Part shown: positions 979 through 18,163 of the stretch, one piece after another
Layout of the letters: each line of letters starts with the position of its first letter
Position numbering within the stretch: the stretch's first letter is position 1
DNA from: a virus
Virus record (IMG/VR): IMGVR_UViG_3300035188_000482
Coordinates: 1-24,491 of that record
Length of the DNA stretch: 24,491 nt
Strand: one strand, 5' to 3'
The notes under the pieces: model-generated
Databases searched by the model: none
The model's input: only the letters and a program-made list of their open reading frames with translations
What the model was told of the DNA's origin: nothing
Program-made: the position numbers and the translations under genes

Positions 979-1031
979 TGTATGCTTAGGGTAGCTTAGG
1001 GCTCACCAGGGTCCAGGTATAAGCTCTTAAA

Positions 1032-1052
1032 GGAGACGACTTCGTCTACTTC
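1032..1052. repeat. Hairpin repeat, copy B of three
   Basis: Begins GGAGACGA like copies A and C, then continues CTTCGTCTACTTC. AGACG (1034-1038) and CGTCT (1043-1047) form a 5-bp stem with loop ACTT. It would mask the AAGGAG upstream of the ORF that begins at 1054. Confidence 0.5.
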
Positions 1053-1271
1053 TATGGGAAGTCGTAATCATAATACGAAGGTTATCTTGTGGGCTTATAT
1101 CTGGTCAGGAATGGTCGCTGCGCTCTCATTCCAGGCTATGGTCTTCTCAGAGTTACTCAGAGTTACCTGTGGGTCAGGATTGGTGGCTATGGTGGTCTCG
1201 GCGTATCTTGACGCCTGCCTTGGGCTCCTGTGGGCCTCGGAGTTGAACTACGCATTTGCGCGCTGTTTCTT

Positions 1272-1293
1272 CAATAGCAGGCCCTCGTTCACT
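1272..1293 (-). promoter_or_regulatory. 22-bp repeat, copy 1; candidate phage RNA polymerase promoter facing the late genes
   Basis: Read on the minus strand this 22-mer begins AGTGAACGAG and ends CCTGCTATTG. It is identical, in inverted orientation, to 6133-6154 just before the RNA polymerase gene; flanking bases differ at both ends. Its length and its end (GCTATTG, compare ACTATAG at the T7 start site) suit a single-subunit RNA polymerase promoter. It points toward the tail-collar gene about 400 nt downstream. The promoter role is inference. Confidence 0.4.
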
Positions 1294-1580
1294 AAAGTGC
1301 TGATAAGTGATTGTTTTTGTGTTGCTTCAGCGTAACTACGCAGTTTCTCAAATTTACACAGGTTTGCGCCCGGATTCTGGTTCCATAAGAGGCCAAAAGT
1401 TGCTTGGGATGAACAACAACGCCGAGGCTTTACCGGGATTTTTGAAAGGCCTTTTGAGATGATTTCAGAGGGGGACAGAGCCGGGAGGGACCCTAAGCCG
1501 CTTGATGCAGCCCGATGTAACGCAAGTCCCTGCAAGTCCCTGTAGCTGATAGCGTAACCTATTGATAACTCTAGCCTGTG

Positions 1581-1597
1581 GCGGACAGATAGTCCGC
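1581..1597. promoter_or_regulatory. Inverted repeat, possible operator
   Basis: GCGGAC-AGATA-GTCCGC is a perfect 6-bp inverted repeat with a 5-nt spacer and no T-run after it, so it looks more like a dimeric regulator site than a terminator. It lies between the 22-bp repeat and the early promoter. Confidence 0.35.
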
Positions 1598-1630
1598 TAT
1601 GTGTAAACAGCAAATGTAGTTGCATGAATT

Positions 1631-1673
1631 GACATTTGGACATTGTGTTTCCGACATTTGCCAGCGACATTTG
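1631..1673 (+). repeat. GACATT(T)G cluster, four copies
   Basis: GACATTTG, GACATTGT, GACATTTG and GACATTTG begin at 1631, 1639, 1653 and 1666, all on the plus strand, with spacings of 8, 14 and 13 nt. The first is part of TTGACA at 1629-1634. Such a cluster in a divergent control region suggests a protein-binding array (repressor or origin-type iterons). Confidence 0.4.
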
Positions 1674-1803
1674 GGCTATGGGTTGCCATAGTCAATAGGC
1701 TACTATTTGTAGTGGGTCTAACTTTTTTATCTACTAGGTCTAGAAATTATTGATTTGTATAGGTTTTCCGAAATGTGAAAAGACATTCGACACAAGAAAC
1801 CTA

Positions 1804-1832
1804 TTGACAGACTATAGCCACAAAGCTACAGT
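1804..1832 (+). promoter_or_regulatory. Candidate host sigma-70-type early promoter
   Basis: TTGACA at 1804-1809, 17-nt spacer, TACAGT at 1827-1832. The expected start near 1839 is just upstream of the first early small gene. A CTATAGCCA motif lies inside the spacer. The -35 is perfect and the -10 matches four of six positions. Confidence 0.5.
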
Positions 1833-1870
1833 AGACCATCGGCAACACAATGCAACCCAGAGCAAACATC

Positions 1871-1975
1871 ATGCAACACATCGCCCCCATAGTTTACCCT
1901 GTGCTACACATTGCAGGCATTGTGTCCTGTGGGTTAGCCCTCGGTTACAGCACCCTTGCGTTCTTTCTCGGCTAA
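1871..1975 (+). CDS. Small single-pass membrane peptide (34 residues)
   Basis: The peptide begins MQHIAPIVYPVLHIAGIVSC and continues GLALGYSTLAFFLG; nearly all of it is one hydrophobic helix. The context CAGAGCAAACATC before ATG mirrors CGGAGCAAACACC before the next gene, which supports this start; an in-frame ATG at 1850 is an alternative (41 residues). It is first after the candidate early promoter and lies 43 nt before the 2019 gene. I recognise no family. Tiny membrane peptides in phage early regions often act on the host envelope or on superinfection, but nothing here shows that. Confidence 0.45.
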   Translation: MQHIAPIVYPVLHIAGIVSCGLALGYSTLAFFLG

Positions 1976-1976
1976 T

Positions 1977-1994
1977 CTATAGCCACTTGACAAC
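1977..1994 (+). repeat. Leader repeat CTATAGCCACTTGACAAC, copy 1
   Basis: A perfect 18-bp direct repeat with 2503-2520. Each copy lies 24-25 nt before the ATG of an early gene, just upstream of its ribosome-binding site. Shorter forms of the CTATAGCCA core occur at 1812, 3221, 3290 and 4793. Confidence 0.6.
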
Positions 1995-2018
1995 TCTTAG
2001 CAACTCGGAGCAAACACC

Positions 2019-2480
2019 ATGACAACATGTCCTGAACTCAAAGAAACCGGACGCCTCGCTTATGCTTCCATCTCAGAGATGGTTGCAGCGCTCAATTGCG
2101 ACTATGACAGACTCGAAGAATTGAAAGATGTGGAAGAATTAACTGAATCTGAATCAGAAGAATTGATCGACTTGGAAAAGGATGCGGGCGAGTGCGCCGA
2201 CCGTGAGGAAGCCGAGCAACGCATTCAGGAAGATGCGCTATCGGTGGAAGTCAGAAGCGGATGGGCTTCTGTGGGCGATGACCTCACAGCCGAAGAGTTT
2301 TGCATCCTTATAACCACTGGTGGTCCCGCCGTGCGTATACGTGGCGAGCTTGATGAAAACTGTGAGCCCCGCCGTGCTTGGCTTGAAGTTCAGAATTGGG
2401 GGACACCGTGGACACAATACTTCGGAGCAGAGCAAGCGGTGCTTCTGGATTATGCGCGCTGTTTCTACTTTGGCGCATAG
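2019..2480 (+). CDS. Conserved acidic hypothetical protein of mobile elements
   Basis: 153 residues. Residues about 20-75 are a very acidic, probably coiled segment (RLEELKDVEELTESESEEL). The second half, from LSVEVRSGWASVG through EFCILITTGGPAVRIRGELD to WLEVQNWGTPWTQYF, matches a pattern I associate with hypothetical proteins on proteobacterial plasmids and phages. No enzymatic motif is visible. The start ATG has CGGAG eight bases upstream. It shares its leader repeat with the next gene, so the two are probably expressed together early. High acidity would fit a DNA-mimic or antirestriction role, but that is speculation. Confidence 0.7.
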   Translation: MTTCPELKETGRLAYASISEMVAALNCDYDRLEELKDVEELTESESEELIDLEKDAGECADREEAEQRIQEDALSVEVRSGWASVGDDLTAEEFCILITTGGPAVRIRGELDENCEPRRAWLEVQNWGTPWTQYFGAEQAVLLDYARCFYFGA

Positions 2481-2502
2481 TTCCAAGTTTTACACGTCCC
2501 AA

Positions 2503-2520
2503 CTATAGCCACTTGACAAC
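2503..2520 (+). repeat. Leader repeat CTATAGCCACTTGACAAC, copy 2
   Basis: Identical to 1977-1994 over 18 bases. The following bases also align loosely (both run on to a GGAG ribosome-binding site and then ATG), so the two leaders look duplicated. A degenerate relative (CATAGTCACTTGG) lies before the 8673 gene. Confidence 0.6.
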
Positions 2521-2545
2521 CTACAGTTAACAAGGAGTAACCACG

Positions 2546-3019
2546 ATGCAACCCTTCAAACACCTTAAACGCTGGCAAATGCCCGATAGCTACTTCGGCC
2601 CAGAGTGGCCTGAGTATTACGTTTTCTTAGGTCAGAATCGGGACAGCGACAGTCTGACCCGCAGTAACTTCGAGTGCGCCCTAACCGCTATCGGTGGTGA
2701 GAGTGAGACTGTCGAGATTGTCCGAGAGCGACACTGGGCGGTGGGTTGGGTTGAGTGGATAGCCATCCACGAGAGCGACACTGCGGCTCTAGCGAAAGCC
2801 GATGCAATTCTAGACAAGCTCGAAGATTATCCGGTTGTAAATGAGGACCACTGGTCCAACCTCGAATACGAGGAAGCGTGCGAGTATTGGAAACGCATGA
2901 GCGTTCGTGAACGTGCGGAATACTGCAAACGTGCGGATATCTCAATCTTTGCCGCTCGCCGTGATTATCTACCCGATGACCCTTGTGGTTATCTTTTCGA
3001 GTCACTCACTGCGGCTTAA
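2546..3019 (+). CDS. Conserved hypothetical protein
   Basis: 157 residues, acidic, with many Trp and Tyr residues. ATG is preceded by AAGGAG with nine bases of spacing. Recognisable stretches are GPEWPEYYVFLGQNRDSD, RHWAVGWVEWIAI and the C-terminal RRDYLPDDPCGYLFESL. I recall this pattern from hypothetical proteins of plasmids and phages of proteobacteria, not from any characterised protein. It follows the 2019 gene with a 65-nt gap that holds the duplicated leader. No membrane segment, signal peptide or catalytic motif is apparent. Confidence 0.7.
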   Translation: MQPFKHLKRWQMPDSYFGPEWPEYYVFLGQNRDSDSLTRSNFECALTAIGGESETVEIVRERHWAVGWVEWIAIHESDTAALAKADAILDKLEDYPVVNEDHWSNLEYEEACEYWKRMSVRERAEYCKRADISIFAARRDYLPDDPCGYLFESLTAA

Positions 3020-3033
3020 GGAAACAACATTCT

Positions 3034-3174
3034 ATGACCTATCAAACACAAGCTTCAAAACCTTCGCACCTGGTATTCTATTCACTACTCGACGCCATGG
3101 CCTTTTTGTTGTGTGTCGCCAGCGGCGCTTGCGTGTTGGGTTACCTGATGTCGAGTTATATCTTCGGTTCCTGA
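3034..3174 (+). CDS. Small membrane protein (46 residues)
   Basis: A short polar head (MTYQTQASKPSH) is followed by one long hydrophobic helix (LVFYSLLDAMAFLLCVASGA, then CVLGYLMSSYIFGS). AAGGAAA lies about eight to ten bases before ATG, and the gene starts 14 nt after the previous stop. A longer in-frame version from 2983 would overlap the previous gene and is less likely. The single helix with small residues in the middle could oligomerise in the inner membrane. No family recognised. Confidence 0.5.
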   Translation: MTYQTQASKPSHLVFYSLLDAMAFLLCVASGACVLGYLMSSYIFGS

Positions 3175-3243
3175 CAGATACCCCCTAGAACGCCCAGAAA
3201 TCGCCTCTGGTGCGCCTGGACTATAACCAATAGGCTACCCTAC

Positions 3244-3309
3244 ATGAAAACCCTTAAACTCACCCAGAGCCACTACAGGCACGCCTGGAGTATAGCCCCA
3301 TGTCTATGA
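3244..3309 (+). CDS. Possible 21-residue leader peptide
   Basis: ATG at 3244 opens MKTLKLTQSHYRHAWSIAPC and one more Leu, then stops with TGA overlapping the ATG at 3306 inside the next gene's start region (ATGA overlap). The ribosome-binding site is weak. It could couple translation to the 3300/3306 gene, or be chance. The same stretch contains the imperfect repeat GCGCCTGGACTATAACC / CACGCCTGGAGTATAGCC (3212-3228 and 3280-3297). Confidence 0.2.
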   Translation: MKTLKLTQSHYRHAWSIAPCL

Positions 3310-3551
3310 CAGCATCTGAGGTCTACAGCCTGATCGGCCATAAGACCCACAATGAGCTTTGCGACCTGTGTCGAAGGCTAAACACCAAACCATGGCTGAA
3401 CTCGCGCGAACAACGCGACCAGCTACAGGCCGCCCAATGGGCTTTGGCTAACCGCTACGCCTACTCGCGCGAATGCAAGTGGCGTCGAGACTTCCCCACG
3501 ACGACCAGAAACCTTTGGACAGCCGATCAACTTCGGGAGTTCGCACGATGA
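3300..3551 (+). CDS. Hypothetical small basic protein
   Basis: 83 residues, rich in Arg, Trp and Gln (REQRDQLQAAQWALANRYAY, then SRECKWRRDF). Basic charge and predicted helices suggest nucleic-acid or protein binding, but no known fold is evident. TGGAG lies nine bases before ATG 3300; ATG 3306 is an alternative start overlapping the leader peptide stop. Its TGA overlaps the next ATG (ATGA), so the two genes are translationally coupled. It contains two CTCGCGCG octamers (3401, 3464), both read as Ser-Arg. Confidence 0.55.
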   Translation: MSMTASEVYSLIGHKTHNELCDLCRRLNTKPWLNSREQRDQLQAAQWALANRYAYSRECKWRRDFPTTTRNLWTADQLREFAR

Positions 3552-3784
3552 CCGACACAACTTACACCGTCGCAAACTTTATGGTGACCCATCTCATAGC
3601 CCCTGCCCGCCTCGCGCGTTACATGGCGCTAAACGACCCCCAGGGATTGGACAGTGACGATAAGCTACTCGCTGACCGGCTCTTGGCCGAGTACGGTGAC
3701 GTTGTGTCCTACACCTCGCGCCCTCGCGCGACTCGAAGCGACCCCGCGATGGTTGAGTTCACCTTCCTGTCATCGGTCGCCTGA
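3548..3784 (+). CDS. Hypothetical protein (78 residues)
   Basis: ATG overlaps the stop of the previous gene (ATGA). The protein begins MTDTTYTVANFMVTHLIAPA, has a helical middle (RLARYMALNDPQGLDSDDKL) and ends EFTFLSSVA. No family recognised. It carries three CTCGCGC sites (3611, 3715, 3723), the densest part of that repeat cluster. A longer reading from 3473 would run deep into the previous gene and is not supported by a ribosome-binding site. Confidence 0.55.
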   Translation: MTDTTYTVANFMVTHLIAPARLARYMALNDPQGLDSDDKLLADRLLAEYGDVVSYTSRPRATRSDPAMVEFTFLSSVA

Positions 3785-4136
3785 GGTTATCCCCAGAACC
3801 CCCAGTATCCTCAGTTTCCCCATATTTAGTGGGTGCGAAAAATTGAAGCTGCTACCTCTTGCAAACCTCGCGTTAGTTGGGGCTAACTCAGATGGTCATG
3901 GCGCGGTACACCCCGAGGGAAGCTCTCGGCGTGCCTTCCGCACCAGCAAGGAGGATAGTCAAGTGACACAGGAGCATCACCGCACGGCATGGCCTAGCCG
4001 GACTCGGCTTTGTCAACAAACTATGACAATAACGACCTCTTGTTCGCGTTGTGTTCTCGCGTTACGTTGGTCGTTTCCAACCTCGACATGGTGTTGAGGA
4101 ACGAAAAGATCGGTCTTATTTACCGGCGGAGATAAC
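3785..4136 (+). other. Gap with possible decayed or very small ORFs
   Basis: A near-ideal ribosome-binding site (AAGGAGG at 3949-3955) lies eight bases before GTG 3963. That reading gives only 44 residues of odd composition, ending at 4097. In another frame, TTG 4010 to TAA 4135 reads more naturally, ending VVSNLDMVLRNEKIGLIYRR plus Arg, but has no ribosome-binding site. A good initiation signal in one frame and protein-like sequence in another suggests a small gene broken by a frameshift. I call neither ORF. Confidence 0.3.
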
Positions 4137-4391
4137 ATGCCTAGTTTTCGTAATATCAAGGCCTTGGACATAAGTAAAGGGGAGCTTCTCTCCTTTGATT
4201 GGACAATCAACGGCACGGGTGGGCGCTTGGTCTTAGCAACAAGCCCTCGCGCGGCTGATTATATAAGCAGAAACACCGATGGCGCACAGCCAGAAACTGT
4301 AGTCTTTGGGGTAGCCTTTGCCACTGAGGGTGACTATCATGCTCTCTGTGTGGGCAGTGATGCCGAGGGCATCCCCAGAGACGATGAGTAG
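4137..4391 (+). CDS. Hypothetical protein (84 residues)
   Basis: ATG follows CGGCGGAGATAAC, giving a GGAG ribosome-binding site at about six to seven bases. The protein begins MPSFRNIKALDISKGELLSF, looks mainly beta-strand, and ends acidic (DAEGIPRDDE). No family recognised. It lies 13 nt upstream of the winged-helix regulator with its own ribosome-binding site, so the pair is probably co-transcribed and ends at the terminator at 4764. One CTCGCGCG site (4246) falls inside. Confidence 0.55.
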   Translation: MPSFRNIKALDISKGELLSFDWTINGTGGRLVLATSPRAADYISRNTDGAQPETVVFGVAFATEGDYHALCVGSDAEGIPRDDE

Positions 4392-4404
4392 AACGGAGAT
4401 AATC

Positions 4405-4773
4405 ATGGAAAAGCGTCGGCCAGGATCAGAGTATAACGACGCGGAACTGCTCGCCCTCACTCGCGCGTCTTACATCATCCGTGAGTTGAGAGAGACCAGT
4501 CAAACTATAACGACACCGATGCTCGATCTTTTCTTCACCGTAGCCCTGAATCCGGGCTATGGACCGAACGAATACTCGCGTCGCATCGGGACACTCGCGC
4601 CAAGCATAAGCAATCAGTTTGCAAAGCTTGGTGGTGAGAAGGACAGCAGGGGCAAACCAATGGATCTGCTGAAAGAAGGGCCGCCTTTGGGTGACCCTCG
4701 CGCGAAAGGTTACTACTTGTCCGAGAACGGCAAGAAGTTAATTCGCCGGATACTCAAGGCACAGGGAGTCTAG
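4405..4773 (+). CDS. Winged-helix (MarR-like) putative regulator
   Basis: 122 residues; ATG 4405 has CGGAG seven to eight bases upstream. Residues about 35-75 (TPMLDLFFTVALNPGYGPNE, then YSRRIGTLAPSISNQFAKLG) read as a first helix followed by a helix-turn-helix of winged-helix type. A wing-like turn and closing helix follow (LLKEGPPLGDPRAKGYYLSE, then NGKKLIRRIL), as in MarR-type proteins. It is the last early gene before the integrase and is followed immediately by a terminator. That position suits a lysogeny or early regulator, but its target is unknown; candidates are the repeats at 1581-1673 or the CTCGCGCG octamer. Confidence 0.65.
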   Translation: MEKRRPGSEYNDAELLALTRASYIIRELRETSQTITTPMLDLFFTVALNPGYGPNEYSRRIGTLAPSISNQFAKLGGEKDSRGKPMDLLKEGPPLGDPRAKGYYLSENGKKLIRRILKAQGV

Positions 4774-4785
4774 GACTCTCTTTTT
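4764..4785 (+). terminator. Rho-independent terminator between regulator and integrase
   Basis: GGGAGTC (4764-4770) pairs with GACTCTC (4774-4780) across a TAG loop, one pair being G-T, followed by TTTTT. The loop TAG is the stop codon of the winged-helix gene, so ribosomes reaching the stop would cover the hairpin. It should separate early transcription from the integrase. Confidence 0.75.
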
Positions 4786-4829
4786 GTCTTGTTTATAGCC
4801 AGAGACCTAACTTAGCCAAGGAGATGGTT

Positions 4830-5906
4830 ATGTCTATCTACCCTGAAAAGAGGAACAAGAAGCCAACGGGAAGGTGGATCGTAGACGTTGTGATGAACTA
4901 CAAGCGACACACTGCTCGCGTTAAATCCTTTGAAGAAGCAAGGAAAACTGAAGCGGCTATTCGTGGGTTTGATTTACCGCCGGAGGAAGTGAAGGACCCA
5001 GATGAAGGTAAGCCCTACACGCTAGGTAGGCTCCAAAGGGAGGTTGCCCCAACTTTGTATCGTGGAAACTCCGACGAGGAGTATGACCTCGCGCGTCTTG
5101 CAACTTGTGTTGAGATTATCGGACCAAAGACACCGTTGACCGAAGTCCGGTATGCAGCCTTGGAAAACCTAGTAGAAGTCTTGCGTAACAAGAAGACGTT
5201 CTACGGCAAGCACTACACCAACAAGACGATCAATCGGTATCTCTCGTGTATGTCAAAAGCCCTTCGATGGGCGCACAAGCGTGACCTTATCCTTGGGATG
5301 CCTGCGATTCCTCGCCAGAAAGAACAAGAGGGTCGCATAGCCTACCTACGCGACTACGAGATACCGAAGTTCGTTGAGTGGATCAGGGACAACGAGCGCG
5401 AGACCACAGCCCTGTGTCTTGAGACGCTCATGGTCACGGGTATGCGCGTTGGTGAACTGTTGTCATTAGACCCGGATCAGGTCGAACAGGACGCTGACGG
5501 CAACTATTTCGTCATACTTGAGCCTGAGTTTACAAAGACCCGCAGGAGTCGAACCATACCCATCCCCCAGGACCTCGGTGACCGACTCATAGCCATGCTC
5601 CACGAGAAGTTGCCGAACTACGAGCTACTCAGGCAGGCGTGTCTCAGGGCAAGCATCAAGCTAAAGCTGAAGGACACCATAACACCTCACATCCTGAGGC
5701 ATACGTGCGCCACCATCCTGACTGCTCAGGGCGTCCCATCGTTGGTTGTGGCTGATCTTTTGGGCCACTCAAATCTGGCGACGACCCGACGCTATGCCCA
5801 CCCGACACGAGCGTCTCTGATAGGCGCGATGGAGGTCATAAGCGCCAAAAGAACTACAGGGACTCTACAGGGGATTGGCGAAAAAACGATCTGTAAACAA
5901 AAGTAG
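4830..5906 (+). CDS. int: Tyrosine recombinase (phage integrase)
   Basis: 358 residues. It catalyses site-specific recombination between attP and attB through a 3'-phosphotyrosine intermediate. All catalytic residues are visible: Arg206 in TGMRVGELLSLD, a Lys in the beta-hairpin TKTRRSRTIPIP, His287 and Arg290 in HILRHTCA, His313 in LGHSNLATTRRYAHP, and the nucleophile Tyr322. Residues about 60-150 form the SAM-like core-binding domain and the N-terminus a short arm-binding region. ATG 4830 is chosen because AAGGAG ends six bases before it; the in-frame ATG 4824 directly abuts the AAGGAG. A TATAGCC motif (4793) after the terminator may be its own promoter region. The tRNA-Tyr-like attP candidate lies 30 nt downstream. 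Confidence 0.95.
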   Translation: MSIYPEKRNKKPTGRWIVDVVMNYKRHTARVKSFEEARKTEAAIRGFDLPPEEVKDPDEGKPYTLGRLQREVAPTLYRGNSDEEYDLARLATCVEIIGPKTPLTEVRYAALENLVEVLRNKKTFYGKHYTNKTINRYLSCMSKALRWAHKRDLILGMPAIPRQKEQEGRIAYLRDYEIPKFVEWIRDNERETTALCLETLMVTGMRVGELLSLDPDQVEQDADGNYFVILEPEFTKTRRSRTIPIPQDLGDRLIAMLHEKLPNYELLRQACLRASIKLKLKDTITPHILRHTCATILTAQGVPSLVVADLLGHSNLATTRRYAHPTRASLIGAMEVISAKRTTGTLQGIGEKTICKQK

Positions 5907-5935
5907 AAACAGTATTAAAAACAATGGGTTGCCAG

Positions 5936-5974
5936 TTTACAGTCCGCCCCCTTTGCCGCTCGGGACATTCCCCC
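5936..5974 (-). other. Candidate attP core: 5' half of a tRNA-Tyr(GTA) gene
   Basis: On the minus strand the sequence runs GGGGGAATGTCCCGAGCGGC, then AAAGGGGGCGG, then ACTGTAAA. This is the acceptor strand, D-arm, and anticodon stem and loop (anticodon GTA at 5940-5938) of a tRNA-Tyr. The match ends at the anticodon loop: the next bases, CTGGCAACCC, cannot complete the anticodon stem, so this is not a working tRNA. Tyrosine integrases often cross over in anticodon loops, and the fragment lies beside int. An inverted repeat CTGTAAAC (5891-5898) / GTTTACAG (5935-5942) overlaps it. On the same strand TTGACA (6013-6008) lies about 35 nt upstream of the tRNA 5' end. Confidence 0.65.
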
Positions 5975-6081
5975 AACGGGAGACCCTTTCGTCAATTCAA
6001 GGGCTTCTGTCAACCCCAGTTCAGCGTGTTTACATTGTCATAGCCCAATGGCTCCGAAGTGCGTGGGAATTTTGGAGCCTC

Positions 6082-6109
6082 TTGACTAGTGTAGGCTTTT
6101 GGCTATGTT
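6082..6109 (+). promoter_or_regulatory. Candidate sigma-70-type promoter for RNA polymerase
   Basis: TTGACT (6082-6087), 16-nt spacer, TATGTT (6104-6109). Transcription would start near 6116, about 70 nt before the ATG at 6188. It lies downstream of the attP candidate, so it would stay attached to the RNA polymerase gene after integration. Confidence 0.5.
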
Positions 6110-6132
6110 TATCAAAGGCTTGGAATCAAAAG

Positions 6133-6154
6133 AGTGAACGAGGGCCTGCTATTG
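6133..6154 (+). promoter_or_regulatory. 22-bp repeat, copy 2; candidate phage promoter before RNA polymerase
   Basis: Identical to 1272-1293 on the opposite strand (begins AGTGAACGAG, ends CCTGCTATTG). It lies between the host-type promoter and the ribosome-binding site of the RNA polymerase. If its last G is +1, the leader to ATG 6188 is about 34 nt and contains GGAG at 6178-6181. An alternative GTG start at 6134 would place the repeat inside the coding region. Confidence 0.4.
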
Positions 6155-6187
6155 CCTATACCGCTCCTAAAACGATTGGAGACACAG

Positions 6188-8638
6188 ATGGACGCTTATG
6201 CCTACACAGCCGCCAAGCTTAACCACAAGGATGAGAAAATCATCCGCAGGATGGGCCTTGGAGACACAGAGCAGGCTCAGGCTCTGACTTCGGATTACGT
6301 GGATGTCTACAGTCACCTGTTCGAGGTTTGGAAAGAAAAAGTCCGATCAGACAGAAACTTTCGTGGAGTGATAAGAGACCTACAGTCACTCGAAACTGAG
6401 ACTTTGGCTGTCCTGAGCATAAATGCGGCTATTTCTTCCCTTGGTGTGGACAACGCAACACTGACCACAACCCTCAGGTATATTGGTCAGGCTGCCTATT
6501 TTGAGTGTTACGGGAAGGCCCTGAGCCTGTTTGACGCAGAGCAGTCTGAGAAGCTTGTGTCATCCACAAAGCGGTCCAACAGCAGCTTAAAGCATCGTAG
6601 GCGAGGTATTCGTGGGCTGGCCAAGCACATCGGCTTTAAGTTTGAGGAGTGGTCGGATCAGGACAAACTGACGGCTGGCCGAAGGCTGCTTGAGGTTCTG
6701 CTTGAGGGTCCACTCTTCGCCTTAGCCTTCATGGACTACCAACCTTACCTTGTGTTGACAGACGAGGCTAACGAGCAGCTTCGAGAGATTATTGACTCCA
6801 TAACCGTCAAGCGACTGAGAGGCGTCCCTCAGGTCGGGGATGTTGTGTTTTGGGAGTCATCCACCCTGCACATTGACAACATGCCCTACCCCCTAATCAG
6901 GAGCTATCAGAAACCCGTCAGGAACCACGTAGACCGGGCAATTAAAGCCGGTCGTATGGGCCAACCTCTGGCTGCCCTGAACCACATTCAGTCAGTCAAA
7001 TGGAAGATCAACGAGGAAGTCCTTCGGGTTGTGGAAAGAGCCTATGCGGACGGTGTCTGTGTAGCCGGGATGCCATCCAAAGTTGACATTGAGCTTCCGG
7101 CTATCAGCAAACCTTGGGAAGCAATGAGCGACCAGGAGAAGTATGCGTGGCGAAGGAAGGCCAAGAGAGTAAAGCTCGCCAACATCTCACTTGAGGGTGA
7201 GCGCATCGTCTTCGAGAGCGATATGTCAACAGCAAGGCGGCTTATCGGCCAGGAGTTCTGGCTGATGTCCAACTGGGACTATCGAGGACGTGTTTACCAA
7301 ATCCCCCACTTCAACTTTCAGCGCCAGGACCATATCCGAGCGTTGTTTCAGTTTGCCGAAGGTCAACAGGTCAACCAAAGCGGTCTTTATTGGCTGAAGG
7401 TTCACCTCGCCAACTGTGGTGACTTCGGAAAGGTCTCAAAGAAAACCTTTGATGACCGTGTGTGGTGGGTAGACGACAACCTTGAGCGCATTCTTTCGCT
7501 CACACTATCGCCATTTGACTACCTATGGTGGACAGAGGCCGACAAGCCGTTCTTGTTCCTCGCTGCATGTTTCGCTTTGAGGGACGCTCTGGATGGCAAG
7601 CCGGTCCACATCCCCTGCTCCCACGATGGATCATGCAGTGGACTTCAGCACCTTGCCGCAAGTAGCCGCTGCGAGAACACCGGACGGCTTGTGAACCTTG
7701 TGTTCAACAAGAGTGGTCCTATGGACATTTATCAAACCATCGCTGACCGGGTTAAGCATAAAGCAGAGGAGGACCTGACTTCAACAGAATCACTCACGTT
7801 CAAAAACGAGAAGACGGGTGTTGAACGTAAGGTGGCCGTCGCTGAACTTGCACGCCTTCTGTTGGACAACGGGATTACAAGGAAGTTGTGTAAACGAAAC
7901 ACAATGACGTTCTCCTATAGCTCCAAGCGTAGCGGGATGCAGGATCAGATACTCGAAGACACCATGCGGCCACTCTCGTTGCAACTGTTATCTGGTGAAA
8001 TCGAACAGCATCCATATGGCGAGGATGGTGGATATGCAGCAGCACGTTATCTGTCTGGGCTGACATACTCAGCTATCGTTGAAACTGTCGATAAACCCGC
8101 AGAAGTAATGCGCTTCCTGCAATCGATAGCACGTGTCATGTCCCATGAGGGAAAACCTGTAACATGGACAACACCGATTGGTTTTCCTGTGATGCTACGT
8201 GTTCCGAATATGAAGCCCTCACAAGTCAAGCTCTTTCTACATGATAGAGGGGTTCGAACAATCTACAAACCCGTGTCACTAAACGAGAACACGGGAATAA
8301 ACAAAGCTAGGGCTTCCTCCTCGATTGCGCCGTCTGTCGTTCACTCATGGGATGCAGCGCATTTGATGATGGTTGTTCTTGCGGCCAAACAGGAGCGCAT
8401 CAACAGCATTGCTCTCGTTCACGATAGCTTTGGGTGTCTTCCGAATGAAGTTGACCGCTTCAGGAAGATAATCAGGGAAACTTTCGTCGAGCTTTATGAC
8501 AAGCATGATGTCCTTCAAGATATCTGGCAGGAAAACAACAGCAATCTTGAAACACATGCTTACAAAATGCCGACCATACCTAAGAAGGGGAAGCTCGATA
8601 TCACAGAAGTGTTGGCAGCGGAGTATTCGTTTGCCTAA
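6188..8638 (+). CDS. Single-subunit DNA-directed RNA polymerase (T7 gp1-like)
   Basis: 816 residues (T7: 883). It transcribes phage middle and late genes from phage-specific promoters. Visible elements are DYRGRVYQIPHFNFQ (equivalent of T7 DWRGRVY), motif A SHDGSCSGLQHLAASSR with metal-binding Asp480, motif B RKLCKRNTMTFSYSSKRSG with Lys569 and Tyr577 (the T7 Lys631/Tyr639 spacing of eight is kept), and motif C ALVHDSFGCLP with Asp746. The C-terminus is AAEYSFA, resembling the T7 FAFA foot. ATG 6188 is chosen because GGAG lies six bases upstream; GTG 6134 would add 18 residues and has a weaker signal. It is the first gene after int and the attP candidate. Confidence 0.96.
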   Translation: MDAYAYTAAKLNHKDEKIIRRMGLGDTEQAQALTSDYVDVYSHLFEVWKEKVRSDRNFRGVIRDLQSLETETLAVLSINAAISSLGVDNATLTTTLRYIGQAAYFECYGKALSLFDAEQSEKLVSSTKRSNSSLKHRRRGIRGLAKHIGFKFEEWSDQDKLTAGRRLLEVLLEGPLFALAFMDYQPYLVLTDEANEQLREIIDSITVKRLRGVPQVGDVVFWESSTLHIDNMPYPLIRSYQKPVRNHVDRAIKAGRMGQPLAALNHIQSVKWKINEEVLRVVERAYADGVCVAGMPSKVDIELPAISKPWEAMSDQEKYAWRRKAKRVKLANISLEGERIVFESDMSTARRLIGQEFWLMSNWDYRGRVYQIPHFNFQRQDHIRALFQFAEGQQVNQSGLYWLKVHLANCGDFGKVSKKTFDDRVWWVDDNLERILSLTLSPFDYLWWTEADKPFLFLAACFALRDALDGKPVHIPCSHDGSCSGLQHLAASSRCENTGRLVNLVFNKSGPMDIYQTIADRVKHKAEEDLTSTESLTFKNEKTGVERKVAVAELARLLLDNGITRKLCKRNTMTFSYSSKRSGMQDQILEDTMRPLSLQLLSGEIEQHPYGEDGGYAAARYLSGLTYSAIVETVDKPAEVMRFLQSIARVMSHEGKPVTWTTPIGFPVMLRVPNMKPSQVKLFLHDRGVRTIYKPVSLNENTGINKARASSSIAPSVVHSWDAAHLMMVVLAAKQERINSIALVHDSFGCLPNEVDRFRKIIRETFVELYDKHDVLQDIWQENNSNLETHAYKMPTIPKKGKLDITEVLAAEYSFA

Positions 8639-8672
8639 TACATAGTCACTTGGCTACACAAAGGATAAACAC

Positions 8673-8891
8673 ATGCCGAATATTCCTTCGCCTGATCCCG
8701 AAGAAGACGATGACGACGCTCCTCTGACACAAGAGGAGATCAACGAAATCCTCGGGCAGTTCCCCGAGATAAACGACATGTCCGCACAGGATTGCTGCAT
8801 CATGGCAGGCTTCCTGTTGGACGTAGGTATGCCTGTGCCAACTGATCTCATAGCGAGAGCGCACAGAGCAGGCTTTTACATCGCTCACTAA
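8673..8891 (+). CDS. Small acidic hypothetical protein
   Basis: 72 residues with a strongly acidic head (PSPDPEEDDDDAPLTQEEIN), then a helical part containing DMSAQDCCIMAGFLLDVGMP. AAGGAT lies about seven to eight bases before ATG. The leader (CATAGTCACTTGG at 8641) resembles the early leader repeat at 1977/2503. No family recognised. The acidic head recalls small phage proteins that bind host polymerase or nucleases, but nothing in the sequence proves this. Confidence 0.6.
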   Translation: MPNIPSPDPEEDDDDAPLTQEEINEILGQFPEINDMSAQDCCIMAGFLLDVGMPVPTDLIARAHRAGFYIAH

Positions 8892-8911
8892 CTAAATACC
8901 AAAGGAAAACT

Positions 8912-9412
8912 ATGGCCAACAAGAAGTTCATTACCACACCTATCGGAACTGCTGTTATGCCGTTCCTGTTCAAAGAGGACGAGCAATACGGTGGGTTTAA
9001 GGTAGCACTCCGTGTGGACAAGGAGACGGCTGCGAAGTTCAAAGCGCAGCTTATGGACCTGTTCAAGGGCGAGGAGTGGAAGACCAAGACGCCCAACATC
9101 CCGATTACTGAAGATACCCGTAATGAGGGGATGTATATAATCAAGACAGCCAGCGGCTATCAGCCTGCTGTGTTCGACTCCAAGAACCGTCCGGTCTCCA
9201 GCAACACCAATGTCGGTGGCGGCTCAGAGGTCCGTGTGATCTGTGAGGCCCACAAGTGGGAAGTGCAGAAGAAGGAGGGGATCAAGTTACGCCTGAAGCA
9301 GGTCCAGATTATTAAGCTTGCTGAAGGTGGTTCGAGTGGCTTCGAGTCAATCGAAGATGGCTATGAGGCCGCAGACAGCGAAGAGCCGTCCTTTGAAACC
9401 CAAGACCTCTAG
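8912..9412 (+). CDS. Single-stranded DNA-binding protein (T7 gp2.5-like)
   Basis: 166 residues. It coats single-stranded DNA at the replication fork and contacts polymerase and primase-helicase. The N-terminus KKFITTPIGTAVMPFLFKED and the segment YIIKTASGYQPAVFDSKNRP match phage SSB proteins that have a cradle of beta-strands. The end is an acidic tail closing in SFETQDL, as expected for the tail that recruits partners. ATG has AAGGAAAA a few bases upstream. It lies between RNA polymerase and endonuclease I, the same order as T7 genes 2.5 and 3. Confidence 0.82.
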   Translation: MANKKFITTPIGTAVMPFLFKEDEQYGGFKVALRVDKETAAKFKAQLMDLFKGEEWKTKTPNIPITEDTRNEGMYIIKTASGYQPAVFDSKNRPVSSNTNVGGGSEVRVICEAHKWEVQKKEGIKLRLKQVQIIKLAEGGSSGFESIEDGYEAADSEEPSFETQDL

Positions 9413-9872
9413 AACCGGAACGGTTTGTTCCTCTGAGAGCGACTACAACCCCATCCTCATCAAGGCGAGATACCGAAGTAAACTCGAAGAAACCGTAGCA
9501 AAGCAACTTGAAGCCGAAGGTATCAAGTTCAGCTACGAGCAGATGAAGATACCCTACACGGTCCCAGAGCGACAGGCCAAGTATATCACTGACTTTGTCG
9601 TAGGCGACCCTGAGCGTCCCATGATTATTGAAGCGAAGGGACGCTTTGCCCACCACAACTCATCAGATGCTCGTGAGCGACAGAAGTTCATCCTTCTGAA
9701 GCAGCAGTATCCTGACCTCGATATTCGCTTCGTGTTCCAATCCCGTAACACAAAAATTTACCCAGGCAGCAAAACCACCGTTTCGCAGTGGGCGGATACG
9801 CATGGTTTTCCTTGGGCAGACAAAGGAAAGATACCTGACGAATGGCTAAAGGAACTAAAAAAACAAGTGTGA
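9363..9872 (+). CDS. Endonuclease I, Holliday-junction resolvase (T7 gp3-like)
   Basis: About 169 residues. It resolves branched DNA and helps degrade host DNA. The catalytic set of the T7 enzyme is visible: Glu in RYRSKLEETVAKQLEAEGI, Asp in YITDFVVG, and Glu and Lys in MIIEAKGRF. The following DLDIRFVFQSRNTKIYPGSK also matches the family. The start is uncertain and must lie inside the SSB gene: ATG 9363 has GAAG six bases upstream, ATG 9357 and TTG 9318 are alternatives. The 50-nt overlap with SSB suggests coupled translation. Its TGA overlaps the next gene's ATG by one base. Confidence 0.9.
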   Translation: MRPQTAKSRPLKPKTSRTGTVCSSESDYNPILIKARYRSKLEETVAKQLEAEGIKFSYEQMKIPYTVPERQAKYITDFVVGDPERPMIIEAKGRFAHHNSSDARERQKFILLKQQYPDLDIRFVFQSRNTKIYPGSKTTVSQWADTHGFPWADKGKIPDEWLKELKKQV

Positions 9873-10087
9873 TGAAGTTACTCCGGTTGAAACCACAGGC
9901 TCGCAAGGTCCTGAGTCACCTTTCGAACAACGGCTCTATCAGCCCGCTCGAAGCACTCCACGTCTACGGCATCTATCGGTTAGCCGCGTGCATCCACGAG
10001 CTTCGTCGTGTGGGCATCCAGGTAACTACCACCATGAAAACGGATGCTTCCGGTAAACACTACGCACACTATGAGGTTGCAGCGTGA
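9872..10087 (+). CDS. Small helix-turn-helix protein
   Basis: 71 residues from ATG 9872, which shares a base with the endonuclease stop (TGATG), the classic coupling arrangement. ATG 9842 is in frame and would add ten residues. The core KVLSHLSNNGSISPLEALHV, then YGIYRLAACIHELRRVGIQV, is a winged-helix/HTH domain common in small phage proteins, followed by a basic strand (TDASGKHYAHYEV). It probably binds DNA, either as a transcription factor or a replication accessory. Target unknown. Its stop overlaps the next GTG (GTGA). Confidence 0.7.
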   Translation: MKLLRLKPQARKVLSHLSNNGSISPLEALHVYGIYRLAACIHELRRVGIQVTTTMKTDASGKHYAHYEVAA

Positions 10088-10749
10088 CTGACATGAACAA
10101 AGATGAGGGTGAACTCAACTTTATCTACTCTGGCTATGGACGACACATCAACTTCCATCTGTCTGAGGGAGACGCAGATTACTTGCCGAAGGTTATGGCT
10201 ACCTTCGCTGAATTTTGTCGTGCAGTAGGCTTTGTGTGGGTCAGTGTTGACCAGGTCCCCGGCAAGGGCATCAAAGGTTATCCCACAAACGACTATCTGT
10301 TCCGTGGTGACTACAAGTGGGACGATAGCACCGATTGGGCTGAGAGTTGGTATCGGCCAGACCCTGAAGTTGACGACGATGACGATGATGAACAGGTCGA
10401 AATCAATCAGGCCGCTGAGTCCTACTGGGATACTGAAGTAGACCGGGCGAACCTCGAAGAAGGCATCGAGCCTGGGGACACCGTGTATTACCACGGCAAA
10501 GGGACGCCTGAGACAACTCCCAACCACAACGAGGAACCTCAGGGACACGGTGGAAACACTGGCGTCTCTCTCGTCAACATGCGTGGCAAAGTCGTCAAGG
10601 TCTATGAGGCCCCGACAGCAATCCGTGTGTTGGTCCGGTGGGACAACTGGAATGATGGCCACAACGGCATGGGGGATGACCCCGAGGCACGTATGGCTGA
10701 CCGGAACTACTGGTGGTCCAACATCGATAACCTTAGTGTGAGCAACTAA
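10084..10749 (+). CDS. Hypothetical acidic protein with SH3-like C-terminus
   Basis: 221 residues from GTG 10084, overlapping the preceding stop; ATG 10093 is an alternative. The first 90 residues are mixed alpha/beta with the motif YLFRGDYKWDD. A run of Asp follows (EVDDDDDDEQVE). Residues about 127-221 (GIEPGDTVYYHGKG ... RGKVVKVYEAPTAIRVLVRW, ending WSNIDNLSVSN) have the strand pattern of a small SH3-like barrel, reminiscent of ligand-binding barrels with a WDN turn; this resemblance is weak. Its place between endonuclease I and primase-helicase suggests a replication or nucleic-acid role. Confidence 0.55.
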   Translation: MTDMNKDEGELNFIYSGYGRHINFHLSEGDADYLPKVMATFAEFCRAVGFVWVSVDQVPGKGIKGYPTNDYLFRGDYKWDDSTDWAESWYRPDPEVDDDDDDEQVEINQAAESYWDTEVDRANLEEGIEPGDTVYYHGKGTPETTPNHNEEPQGHGGNTGVSLVNMRGKVVKVYEAPTAIRVLVRWDNWNDGHNGMGDDPEARMADRNYWWSNIDNLSVSN

Positions 10750-10753
10750 TCAA

Positions 10754-12331
10754 ATGGGAACCTTCGTAAGACATATCGCCTGCGAGAACTGTGGGTCATC
10801 CGATGGAAACTGCCTTTATGTTGATGGCACCACATTTTGTTTCGTGTGCCGGACTTACGGAGGTTCCTCTACTGAACATGGAGACAAAGTGAGCAATGGG
10901 AAACTACTGGAGCGAAATAGCCGATTACTACAAGGCTCTTACACCGACATTCCTAAAAGACGCCTACGAGAAGACACTTGCCGAAAGTTTGGCTATGCCA
11001 CAGGAACAGATTCAAATGGTCAACCCCTACACATTGCTAGTTATCGGGATGCTGGAGGGCGCGTTGTTGCTCAGAAAATTCGCAGACCCAACAAGCACTT
11101 CTCGTGGCTGGGAGAACGAAGCGAATGCCTTCCTCTCTACGGCCAGCATCTATGGTCCTCCGGTCGGTATGTCATCATTACAGAAGGCGAAATAGACTGT
11201 CTGTCGGTCGCACAGGCCTTCTCTCTGAAACACGCGGTAGTCTCCCTGCCCGATGGAGCCCAGAGCGCACCCAAGGCTATCAAACAGGCCTATGAGTGGC
11301 TCTGTGGCTTCGAGAAGATAGTCCTGTGTTTCGATCAGGATGAGGCGGGTCAGAAGGCTGTTCAACAGGTGGCAGAGATGCTGCCTGTTGGCAAAGTCTT
11401 AGTCATGCACCTAACCCGTAAGGACGCCAATGAAGTCCTTGTGAACGATGGTGCTGCTCCAATTACACAAGCCTTCTGGAACGCTACCGAGTGGCGACCT
11501 GATGGCATTGTAAGTGGGGAAGACCTTTGGCAAGAAATACTGAATTCCAAAGATGCTGAGTCAATCAGTTATCCTTGGCCTTGTTTAGATGTAAGGACCA
11601 AAGGTCTTCGCAAAGGGGAGCTTGTAACCATCACAGCAGGCTCTGGCATCGGTAAGTCATCCTTTGTCCGTGAAGTTGCCTACCATCTCATCAAACACGG
11701 TGAGACTGTGGGTATGCTTATGCTAGAAGAAAGCACAACGAAAACTGCTCTTGAGCTTATGGGCCTTGCGTTGGATGTATCACTACCTCAGAGAAAATCC
11801 GAGGTAACTGAAGAACAACTCAGAGCCGCCTTCAGTCAAACTGTGGGCTCTGGTCATCTATATCTCTATGACCACTTCGGTTCCACGGACGTAGACAATC
11901 TGCTGAACAAGATCCGCTACATGTCCAAGGCACTTGGTTGCTCGTGGATCATCCTTGACCACCTATCGATTGTCGTGAGTGGGCTCGACGGTAACGATGA
12001 GCGAAAACTCATCGACCGTGCGATGACCATGCTGCGAACTCTGGTACAGGAGACAGGCATTGGGTTGCTTGTGGTCTCCCATCTGCGACGACCGGATGGC
12101 AAGGGACACGAAGAGGGCGCACAGGTGTCTCTGAGTCAACTCCGAGGTTCTCATGCCATCGCACAGCTTTCCGACATGGTCATTGGTCTTGAGAGAAACC
12201 AACAAAGTGATGTGGAGGAGGACATGACGACTGTGCGTGTGTTGAAGAACAGGTCTTATGGAAAGTGTGGCAAAACAGGGGTTCTTCTTTACAGTGATGC
12301 CACAGGACGAATGACTGACGCTGGATTGTAG
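10754..12331 (+). CDS. Bifunctional DNA primase-helicase (T7 gp4-like)
   Basis: 525 residues (T7: 566). It synthesises RNA primers and unwinds DNA as a hexamer. The zinc-binding domain has Cys10, Cys13, Cys29 and Cys32. The TOPRIM domain shows ITEGEIDCLSVAQAF (about residues 136-150) and LCFDQDEAGQKA. The DnaB/RecA-type helicase domain has Walker A AGSGIGKSS with Lys301 and Walker B SWIILDHLS with Asp402, then RGSHAIAQLSDMVIGLERNQ and a C-terminal KNRSYGKCGKTG. The T7-like acidic C-terminal tail is short here (GRMTDAGL). ATG 10754 lacks a strong ribosome-binding site and sits five bases after the previous stop. Confidence 0.95.
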   Translation: MGTFVRHIACENCGSSDGNCLYVDGTTFCFVCRTYGGSSTEHGDKVSNGKLLERNSRLLQGSYTDIPKRRLREDTCRKFGYATGTDSNGQPLHIASYRDAGGRVVAQKIRRPNKHFSWLGERSECLPLYGQHLWSSGRYVIITEGEIDCLSVAQAFSLKHAVVSLPDGAQSAPKAIKQAYEWLCGFEKIVLCFDQDEAGQKAVQQVAEMLPVGKVLVMHLTRKDANEVLVNDGAAPITQAFWNATEWRPDGIVSGEDLWQEILNSKDAESISYPWPCLDVRTKGLRKGELVTITAGSGIGKSSFVREVAYHLIKHGETVGMLMLEESTTKTALELMGLALDVSLPQRKSEVTEEQLRAAFSQTVGSGHLYLYDHFGSTDVDNLLNKIRYMSKALGCSWIILDHLSIVVSGLDGNDERKLIDRAMTMLRTLVQETGIGLLVVSHLRRPDGKGHEEGAQVSLSQLRGSHAIAQLSDMVIGLERNQQSDVEEDMTTVRVLKNRSYGKCGKTGVLLYSDATGRMTDAGL

Positions 12332-12340
12332 GAGGTAAGC

Positions 12341-12481
12341 ATGGTGACACTTGTGAACGCTCTGGCTGCTGTGGGTGCCTATACGCTGCTGAAGTTTGGT
12401 CTTCGTATCTACAGCCTGATGACGGAGGACCGTAGTGGTAACAGCGGGCGCTACAAAATGTGGGATCAGGAAGATGAGTGA
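12341..12481 (+). CDS. Small membrane protein (46 residues)
   Basis: ATG 12341 is preceded by GGAGG five bases upstream, one of the best ribosome-binding sites in the window, and begins nine nt after the primase-helicase stop. The protein starts MVTLVNALAAVGAYTLLKFG as one hydrophobic helix, then has a soluble tail (LRIYSLMTEDRSGNSGRYKM, then WDQEDE). Family unknown. It is easily missed because of its length. Similar tiny membrane genes occur at 1871, 3034 and 14599. Confidence 0.65.
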   Translation: MVTLVNALAAVGAYTLLKFGLRIYSLMTEDRSGNSGRYKMWDQEDE

Positions 12482-12531
12482 ATACGCGAGCGCGTATATC
12501 TCAATTTTATACGCAAACCAGTATAGGGAGA
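12482..12531 (+). promoter_or_regulatory. Hairpin plus T7-promoter-like sequence before the inserted gene
   Basis: ATACGCG-AG-CGCGTAT (12482-12497) is a perfect inverted repeat starting in the stop codon of the previous gene. Twenty-four bases further, TATAGGGAGA (12522-12531) equals the initiation part of the T7 promoter, with TTATACG (12507-12513) upstream. The GGGAGAGGAG stretch is also the ribosome-binding site for 12538, so part of the likeness may be chance. Confidence 0.3.
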
Positions 12532-12537
12532 GGAGTG

Positions 12538-12837
12538 ATGTTTGATACCATCGCTTACATCAAAGACAAAAAGCGACTTGCAGAAGAGAACAAAAAACTA
12601 CTTTCCCGCATTGCGGAACTGAAGGCGGCCATAGAGCCTTTCCTGCGCGTAAAGGCCATCACAACAATTTACGAATACGTTCCGGTTGAGGCTCTGCGCG
12701 ACGACGAGGAACTCATCGTCATGGTGAACGGCGCAGAAATCCGCGCCGCCCGCGCCGCGCTGAAGGGAGAGAAGTGGAAACGCTTTTTGACGAACGCTGA
12801 CGAAGCCCTGAAGGGAGATACATCTGAGCAACCGTAG
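12538..12837 (+). CDS. Coiled-coil hypothetical protein, possible inserted gene
   Basis: 99 residues from ATG 12538 with GGAGAGGAG just upstream; a GTG at 12478 would extend it through the hairpin and is less likely. Residues 10-35 (KDKKRLAEENKKLLSRIAEL) form a coiled coil. The rest (EYVPVEALRDDEELIVMVNG) is a small alpha/beta segment with Ala/Arg-rich helices. Codons are visibly richer in GCC, GCG and CGC (12741-12765) than the neighbours, and a hairpin precedes it. This suggests a later insertion between primase-helicase and polymerase. Its 3' end overlaps the polymerase start. Family not recognised. Confidence 0.6.
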   Translation: MFDTIAYIKDKKRLAEENKKLLSRIAELKAAIEPFLRVKAITTIYEYVPVEALRDDEELIVMVNGAEIRAARAALKGEKWKRFLTNADEALKGDTSEQP

Positions 12838-14602: not shown

Positions 14603-14703
14603 AACTGGATGAAGCAATAGAGGTCGCGGTCTACCTGTTGATGGTGGTCACGATAGCCGCCCTAATCAACGCAATCGTATTAGCAGGAGCAATCGGACAT
14701 TGA
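14599..14703 (+). CDS. Small membrane peptide (34 residues)
   Basis: TTG 14599 overlaps the polymerase stop (TTGA) and has GGAG ten bases upstream. The product begins MKLDEAIEVAVYLLMVVTIA and ends ALINAIVLAGAIGH: an acidic head and one transmembrane helix. Its own stop overlaps the next TTG in the same TTGA pattern. This repeated arrangement supports real translation by re-initiation. No family recognised. Confidence 0.5.
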   Translation: MKLDEAIEVAVYLLMVVTIAALINAIVLAGAIGH

Positions 14704-14972
14704 TCGACCAGAAACTGTTTGACATCGTTCTGGAAGCCTTCACTCGTTCCTTCACTGTCCAATCAGACTTCGCCAGAGCCAACGCTCCCTATGTAGCTAT
14801 GGCTGCCTCCTTGGGGCTCATCTCAACCAAGGTCCACAACAACATCTTCAGTAGCGAGTGGCGACCCACAGTCAAGGGTCTCACCTGGCTCGACCGTAAG
14901 GGTATCGATGTTGCTGAGGAGACATGGTCTGAGGCTCCAGTAGACCACACGGACACTGATGAAGAAACGTAA
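14700..14972 (+). CDS. Hypothetical protein (90 residues)
   Basis: TTG 14700 has GGAG ten bases upstream and overlaps the preceding stop. The middle, YVAMAASLGLISTKVHNNIF, then SSEWRPTVKGLTWLDRKGID, reads like a small winged-helix or RNA/DNA-contacting fold seen in phage accessory proteins, but I cannot name a family. The end is acidic (DHTDTDEET). It overlaps the next ATG by 14 nt. It sits between DNA polymerase and thyX in the tightly packed middle operon. Confidence 0.55.
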   Translation: MIDQKLFDIVLEAFTRSFTVQSDFARANAPYVAMAASLGLISTKVHNNIFSSEWRPTVKGLTWLDRKGIDVAEETWSEAPVDHTDTDEET

Positions 14973-18161: not shown

Positions 18162-18163
18162 TT

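Follow-up and report, generated by a model that had tools for sequence, protein, structure and literature searches.

Genes of the early region

The window analysed here is the whole of a 24,491-nucleotide stretch of viral DNA (IMG/VR record IMGVR_UViG_3300035188_000482, positions 1 to 24,491), and coordinates are window positions unless another contig is named. Its predicted genes are those of a temperate T7-like phage with a MarR regulator, an integrase and a T7-type RNA polymerase (RNAP), and our subject is an octamer, CTCGCGCG, that is repeated in a single orientation across the early genes preceding the RNAP gene. The genes on the + strand include a tyrosine integrase, a single-subunit RNA polymerase, a T7-type primase-helicase, a DNA polymerase and a C5 methyltransferase; those that bear on the octamer array are the following, with the attachment core:

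3300 to 3551, +: small early gene (gene 3300), 83 amino acids, all-helical structure model; conserved in the related contigs L012, L015 and L016
3548 to 3784, +: small early gene (gene 3548), 78 amino acids; conserved in L010, L012, L015 and L016
4137 to 4391, +: small early gene (gene 4137), 84 amino acids, hypothetical
4405 to 4773, +: MarR-fold regulator (gene 4405), PHROG 9665 transcriptional regulator; the top Foldseek matches are MarR-family proteins
4830 to 5906, +: tyrosine integrase (int)
5936 to 5975, +: attachment core, downstream of int
6191 to 8638, +: T7-type single-subunit RNAP gene; from this point on the array is absent
20143 to 20898: C5 DNA methyltransferase

An oriented octamer array

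The + strand carries eight copies of CTCGCGCG and the - strand none; every copy lies within 3401-5095, none elsewhere in the window, and the word is the commonest 8-mer of the window (runner-up, 7 copies). An exact count agreed with a preliminary description of this DNA on all eight start positions and on the A or C that precedes each copy, and placed the copies in five genes rather than six: two each in gene 3300, gene 3548 and the MarR gene, and one each in gene 4137 and int. All three reading phases are used, as had been claimed, the word being read twice as Ser-Arg, twice as Leu-Ala-Arg and four times as Pro-Arg-Ala or Thr-Arg-Ala. The five variants first listed (3715, 3867, 4056, 4575 and 4594) are real, and a sixth at 4915 had been overlooked. 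The sites, all on the + strand, are:

3401 to 3408, +: CTCGCGCG, copy 1, gene 3300, Asn-Ser-Arg-Glu
3464 to 3471, +: CTCGCGCG, copy 2, gene 3300, Tyr-Ser-Arg-Glu
3611 to 3618, +: CTCGCGCG, copy 3, gene 3548, Leu-Ala-Arg
3715 to 3722, +: variant CTCGCGCC, gene 3548, Thr-Ser-Arg-Pro
3723 to 3730, +: CTCGCGCG, copy 4, gene 3548, Pro-Arg-Ala
3867 to 3874, +: variant CTCGCGTT, no gene assigned
4056 to 4063, +: variant CTCGCGTT, no gene assigned; CTCACGCT in the matching stretch of L017, by eye
4246 to 4253, +: CTCGCGCG, copy 5, gene 4137, Pro-Arg-Ala
4460 to 4467, +: CTCGCGCG, copy 6, MarR gene, Thr-Arg-Ala
4575 to 4582, +: variant CTCGCGTC, MarR gene
4594 to 4601, +: variant CTCGCGCC, MarR gene
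4697 to 4704, +: CTCGCGCG, copy 7, MarR gene, Asp-Pro-Arg-Ala
4915 to 4922, +: variant CTCGCGTT, int
5088 to 5095, +: CTCGCGCG, copy 8, int, Leu-Ala-Arg

The hexamer core CTCGCG is present 14 times in 3401-5093 and once more at 24025, where it runs antisense to a leftward tail gene; the complementary word, CGCGAG, has three copies in the whole window and one in the early region (14 versus 1). Genes contain all eight exact sites and 12 of the 14 core sites, all in the early segment, the variants at 3867 and 4056 falling outside assigned genes. Information in the motif is limited to about eight positions, (A/C)CTCGCG(C/T), with flanks near background.

The repetition exceeds what chance or coding predicts. 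Markov simulations of the whole window (400 at each of orders 1 to 5, 2000 in total), scored by the top 8-mer count per 1695-base span, never gave more than 6, against 8 observed. With models trained on 3301-5200, at least eight copies of CTCGCGCG appeared in 0.4% of 2000 runs at order 4 and in 47% at order 5, and at least eight copies of any 8-mer in 0/400 at orders 1 to 3 and 5/400 at order 4; region-trained models of orders 4 and 5 sometimes reach 8 because the word is already contained in them. Synonymous codons of the five genes were also shuffled within genes, from an early pool and from a whole-window pool (10,000 shuffles per scheme), giving on average 0.74, 0.35 and 0.18 copies of CTCGCGCG, a maximum of 5, and 8 in none of the 30,000. 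The strand preference of the core in these genes is 12 versus 1, where codon use predicts 3.3 versus 1.9 at most, and the octamer fills 8 of the 10 places that the protein sequence permits in the early genes versus 0 of 10 in the other + genes of the window.

It is therefore extremely improbable that common Ser-Arg, Leu-Ala-Arg and Pro-Arg-Ala peptides, or random clustering, produced the array: Pro-Arg-Ala is found in several small early proteins, but three frames are in use, two variant sites are non-coding, and the codon-aware shuffles never attain the count. The mix of frames and the shuffles rule out a peptide motif as the cause, in line with the earlier view that protein sequence is not responsible, and the Markov and codon-shuffle tests rule out chance, base composition and codon usage.

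The same word in related phages

Relatives were taken from searches with RNAP and integrase, and their RNAPs are 54-59% identical to that of the window; an integrase search using the window protein alone gave no match. Five of them (L017, L010, L012, L015 and L016) have a readable early region. Four others (L009, L011, L013 and L014) hold little or none and were excluded from the k-mer counts, with CTCGCG/CGCGAG counts of 2/0, 2/2, 0/0 and 2/0, respectively; L018-L020, L144, L149, L151-L153, L155, L157, L158, L161 and L194-L197 are duplicates of other contigs. The search for the octamer in early regions of related phages that the preliminary description had suggested found the oriented core in all five readable relatives. 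The most over-represented early 8-mer is CTCGCGCG in the window and L017, and CCCTCGCG in L010, L012, L015 and L016; in all six contigs this top word lies mostly on the + strand, has 0-2 copies on the - strand and is absent from the rest of the contig. Simulated early regions matched the best word in 0/200 cases for five contigs and in 2/200 for L010. Each early region holds 6-26 cores, and the six pooled have 93 CTCGCG versus 12 CGCGAG, four of the six contigs being closely related; L012 and L016 are not independent because they share a stretch with identical site spacing.

The sites turn over between clades. Nucleotide identity between the window and the L010 clade is about 50% in the early stretch, with 0-2 cores per comparison at aligned positions. 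Inside the L010 clade the core is kept above permuted 6-mers in all six pairs of L010, L012, L015 and L016 (for example, 24/27 versus 58/100 for L012 and L016, and 20/23 versus 52/81 for L010 and L012). The preliminary description had held that relatives keeping the proteins while losing the octamers at synonymous positions would speak against a signal; in this comparison the codons proved to be kept at the two sites whose protein sequence is conserved. The Pro-Arg-Ala of gene 3548 (3723 site) is encoded as CCT.CGC.GCG in 5/5 contigs (window, L010, L012, L015 and L016), and the Ser-Arg-Glu of gene 3300 (3464 site) as TCG.CGC.GAA in 4/4 (window, L012, L015 and L016), the last three reading GTCGCGCG owing to the preceding Trp codon. 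Under these two shared sites 6/6 codons are identical across clades, versus 7/46 other invariant codons (p 8e-5). Away from the two conserved-protein sites, amino acids and sites change together between clades. At the 4697 place of the MarR gene the window has Asp-Pro-Arg-Ala, and L010, L012 and L016 have CTCGCGC in another frame, read as Asp-Ser-Arg-Lys. In L012, a DUF932 gene (3719-4588) carries eight CTCGCG cores in all three frames and shows clearly how the word can dictate amino acids.

The word, its orientation, its confinement to the early region and its conservation are thus direct observations. With recurrence in the early regions of relatives and codons frozen at two sites, the earlier proposal of an oriented nucleic-acid signal independent of frame is upheld, and we regard it as highly probable that the word is a selected, oriented, lineage-conserved nucleic-acid signal inside early genes.

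Beyond this group CTCGCG is not a top word in L021 and L023 (RNAP 40% identical), Roseobacter phages CRP-125, CRP-113 and CRP-361, HTVC031P, Rhizobium phage Pasto or L167. Some of these have other words of their own, which for CRP-113, L167 and L021/L023 were looked at by position only: TCTAACCC in CRP-113 and TCACAATA in L167 beat all 200 simulations, and for the top words of Pasto and L021 3/200 simulations were as good. TCACAATA has 13 copies on the + strand of L167 at 3541-15197, several in RNAP and replication genes and in different frames. TCTAACCC lies at 1, 110, 669, 2899, 4689, 5486 and 11231 of CRP-113 (L190), in some cases directly before genes, and these repeats are perhaps promoter parts.

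Attachment core, host proxies and origin of the word

The attachment core at 5936-5975 does not vary among the ten examined contigs that span it (the window and L009-L017). For a 39-bp stretch of its reverse complement, bacterial genomes contain at least 119 exact matches, many of them in Methylobacterium, Bosea, Methylocystis and Brevundimonas, and ARAGORN identified tRNA-Tyr(GTA) at one checked locus. The complement of the core thus belongs to the tRNA-Tyr(GTA) gene in Rhizobiales and Caulobacteraceae, and unrelated viral contigs have the core as well. Since the core matches alphaproteobacterial tRNA-Tyr, the phage probably integrates into the tRNA-Tyr of an alphaproteobacterium. Seven unrelated viral contigs with the same core have no RNAP relative and only 0-6 octamers per strand, unclustered; the distribution of the word therefore tracks the lineage of the phage rather than its site of integration, and a motif tied to the attachment core is ruled out. 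Integrase arm-type sites are unlikely, there being no core between 5093 and 5936 and the array spanning kilobases. The phages collection contained no related DNA, its sole matches being 41 bp at 5936-5976 in Prevotella Lak phages, probably tRNA-Tyr, and no match to the MarR protein; an RNAP search for prophages in bacterial genome contigs gave no match, and a tRNA search found none.

These data bear on two further origins of the word. It could be some other oriented DNA signal, either a site that serves recombination or DNA protection in the manner of Chi, or one that host and phage use for replication, entry or partition. The octamer resembles Chi in length, GC-richness and orientation, and shares its length, orientation and frame independence with Chi and KOPS alike. 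Those signals, however, are host-chromosome-wide, whereas the octamer is confined to the phage early region; it is missing from unrelated viral contigs with the same attachment core, and two host proxies, sampled at 200 kb apiece, show no over-representation of CTCGCGCG (z 0.3 in Methylobacterium, z 1.6 in Brevundimonas). We consider a signal of this kind unlikely. The other word, CCCTCGCG, has z 2.9 in 200 kb of Methylobacterium. The recommended search of candidate host genomes for the octamer came out negative for CTCGCGCG, in two proxies that may not be the host.

The other origin, also raised in the preliminary description, is that the early genes are recent arrivals from a genome in which an octamer is iterated many times, as HIP1 is in cyanobacteria; HIP1 likewise lies inside genes. 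CGCG is more frequent in the early region than in the rest, and the CpG ratio is higher (1.02 versus 0.76), but GC content is the same in both (0.53 versus 0.52). HIP1 is palindromic and genome-wide, whereas the octamer is strand-biased and regional; int and the MarR gene, which are syntenic family genes, carry the word as well; the word persists from clade to clade although its positions change; and neither of the two host proxies is enriched. We consider a donor-genome mark very unlikely.

Other features

Elements of the form CTATAGCC precede early genes at 1812, 1977 and 2503 (+), with looser copies at 3221, 3290 and 4793, and the elements at 1964-1994 and 2490-2520 are 81% alike over 31 nucleotides. 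The non-coding stretch 3785-4136 is similar by eye to 684-913 of L017, with common pieces such as GTGGTCGTTTC/TTGGTCGTTTC and AAAGATCGGTC. In 12332-13100, an open reading frame of 119 amino acids (12478-12837) lies between the primase and DNA polymerase genes; the DNA polymerase frame stays open on the upstream side of its first ATG (13100), where it has no start codon of the ATG, GTG or TTG type, and tblastn with the L012 protein matched residues 8-597 in one frame.

Position of the array between candidate phage promoters

A 22-nucleotide sequence ending CTATTG has exactly two occurrences in the window:

6133 to 6154, +: candidate phage-RNAP promoter upstream of the RNAP gene, ending 36 bases before its start codon
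1272 to 1293, -: candidate phage-RNAP promoter facing a leftward tail gene, the exact partner of 6133-6154

L015 has a different repeat pair in the corresponding places, 24/28 alike; the pair of L012 comprises 13 exact nucleotides plus scattered matches, and a segment at 3675 (-) of that contig resembles the 22-nucleotide element of the window (17/22); the pair of L016 could not be made out. The variable part of the candidate promoters differs from phage to phage, and their initiation part, CTATAG, resembles the T7 promoter. Judged by the repeat pairs, the divergent repeats look like phage-RNAP promoters with a specificity that is not the same in every phage. Repeats and array could both be located in three contigs, and there the cores lie between the repeats: 14/15 in the window, 23/23 in L012 and 11/11 in L015. 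The array would therefore be confined to a segment that only host RNA polymerase should transcribe, and this segment is probably transcribed by host RNA polymerase alone. On the sense strand of the RNAP and downstream genes the core is absent (0 versus 8.4 expected, over six contigs that are related and not independent).

Part of such a contrast could arise by loss. Both CGCG and GATC are under-represented outside the early region (window 6191-21610, L010, L012, L015, L016 and L017); GATC occurs 40 times there in the window versus 81.0 expected, CCGG occurs once in CRP-125 versus 55.4, and the scarcity of CGCG and GATC is likely restriction avoidance. If CGCG had been purged against a host restriction enzyme and the early region had escaped, CTCGCGCG might be no more than the visible remainder. 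The counts of CGCG outside the early region (15 versus 28.8 expected in the window, 10 versus 27.1 in L010, 11 versus 25.4 in L012 and 15 versus 32.3 in L015), the absence of such a deficit inside it and the C5 DNA methyltransferase that the phage encodes are consistent with this account, which nevertheless leaves unexplained the excess over expectation, the orientation (14 versus 1), the same word in relatives and the codon conservation under the word; we judge it quite unlikely as the source of the array.

A possible gate on host transcription

We propose, with a probability of about 0.4, that the array is a set of oriented, intragenic, stoperator-like sites that gate host transcription into the RNAP gene. 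A DNA-binding protein of phage or host would occupy the octamers, and the bound sites, effective in one orientation only, would impede host RNA polymerase on its path from the early promoter through the MarR gene and int to the phage RNAP gene. The phage RNAP probably boosts transcription of its own gene from the candidate promoter at 6133 just before it; for this reason lysogeny would be held by suppressing host read-through, and loss of site occupancy would release the phage from lysogeny. The roadblock, its binder and a role in lysogeny are what we infer. The fuller claim, that a read-through gate lies in the coding genes, with occupancy deciding whether host polymerase reaches the self-amplifying RNAP gene, and is the missing lysis-lysogeny element of the lineage, is put forward tentatively and may well be mistaken; if it is true, the gate array would shape the amino-acid sequences of several early proteins.

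The gene order MarR-int-RNAP is that of CRP-125, CRP-113, CRP-361 and Pasto, and of the module of temperate Autographiviridae (LUZ100, Pasto and the Roseobacter CRP phages); what differs is the octamer array upstream in the early genes, absent from the three CRP phages and Pasto, as examined here. The authors of the LUZ100 paper hypothesize that the first phage RNAP arises from host read-through over MarR-int and is then self-amplified, and that MarR acts at the promoter upstream of RNAP (PMC10134795).

The closest parallel is with the stoperators of Cluster A mycobacteriophages (L5, Bxb1, TipsytheTRex). According to two accounts, these are likewise many short asymmetric copies in a temperate phage, oriented with transcription, losing function on reversal and similar but not identical between relatives; they differ from the octamers in measuring 13-14 bp, in numbering 20-30 sites genome-wide, in lying mostly in short intergenic spaces and in having a known monomeric repressor (PMC9283540, PMC6550527). 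The octamer array, in a different phage family, has a core of 7-8 bp and 6-26 copies per early region, is mostly intragenic and is limited to the early segment. No earlier description of such an array was found in the literature searched, which did not cover subscription journals.

Several points weigh against a gate of this kind. The DNA binder of the octamers is itself postulated. The model of gene 4405 has a MarR fold (mean pLDDT 82.8), yet MarR proteins usually bind palindromes, as dimers, and the recognition helix differs between window/L017 and the L010 clade though the core is common to both; MarR is therefore left as a candidate reader. The helical model of gene 3300, looked at as another possible reader, had no structural match (best E 1.4). 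A mostly intragenic site of 7-8 bp departs from the longer, mostly intergenic stoperators. Starting upstream of MarR and int, the array would damp both as well. The next clade (L021 and L023) and the roseophages of the same gene order are without the array, so that this life cycle does not as a rule require it. Outside the array, avoidance extends to overlapping words on both strands (TCGCGC 0 versus 11.9 expected, GCGCGA 1 versus 8.1), perhaps as simple avoidance of CGCG, and this implies that part of the contrast between the early region and the rest may come from restriction.

Finally, a reading at the RNA level is compatible with the neutral exposure of the sites in predicted folds. As the main rival to a DNA gate, it supposes that early mRNA carries CUCGCGCG as a target for an antitermination complex, a sequence-specific nuclease or another RNA-binding protein, and that this sets the life or elongation of host-made early transcripts. 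Every site is sense-oriented in early genes, mostly in coding sequence; RNAP and the genes after it have none on their sense strand, and RNA readers typically recognise words of 6-8 bases. The RegB sites of T4 are a partial precedent, being short sense-strand words limited to early messages, but RegB cuts GGAG mainly at translation starts, whereas the octamer is GC-rich and lies within coding sequence. Against an RNA signal, the sites show no gain in single-strandedness over versions whose flanks were shuffled (mean z -0.13, s.e.m. 0.11, for 65 sites), and an Rfam search of 1000-6400 gave no match. We view this explanation as doubtful, though worth keeping in mind.

Implications for integrating T7-like phages

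For the silencing of a self-amplifying RNAP in integrating T7-like phages, the LUZ100 paper gives a hypothesis only (PMC10134795). The array described here is a concrete, conserved and testable candidate in front of the RNAP gene. If the octamers do form a roadblock to host polymerase, stoperator-type control would extend to another phage family, unrelated to the first, and would there overlie coding sequence; if they are read in RNA, they would be a new early-mRNA signal. Either way, a nucleic-acid word dictates amino acids in several genes.

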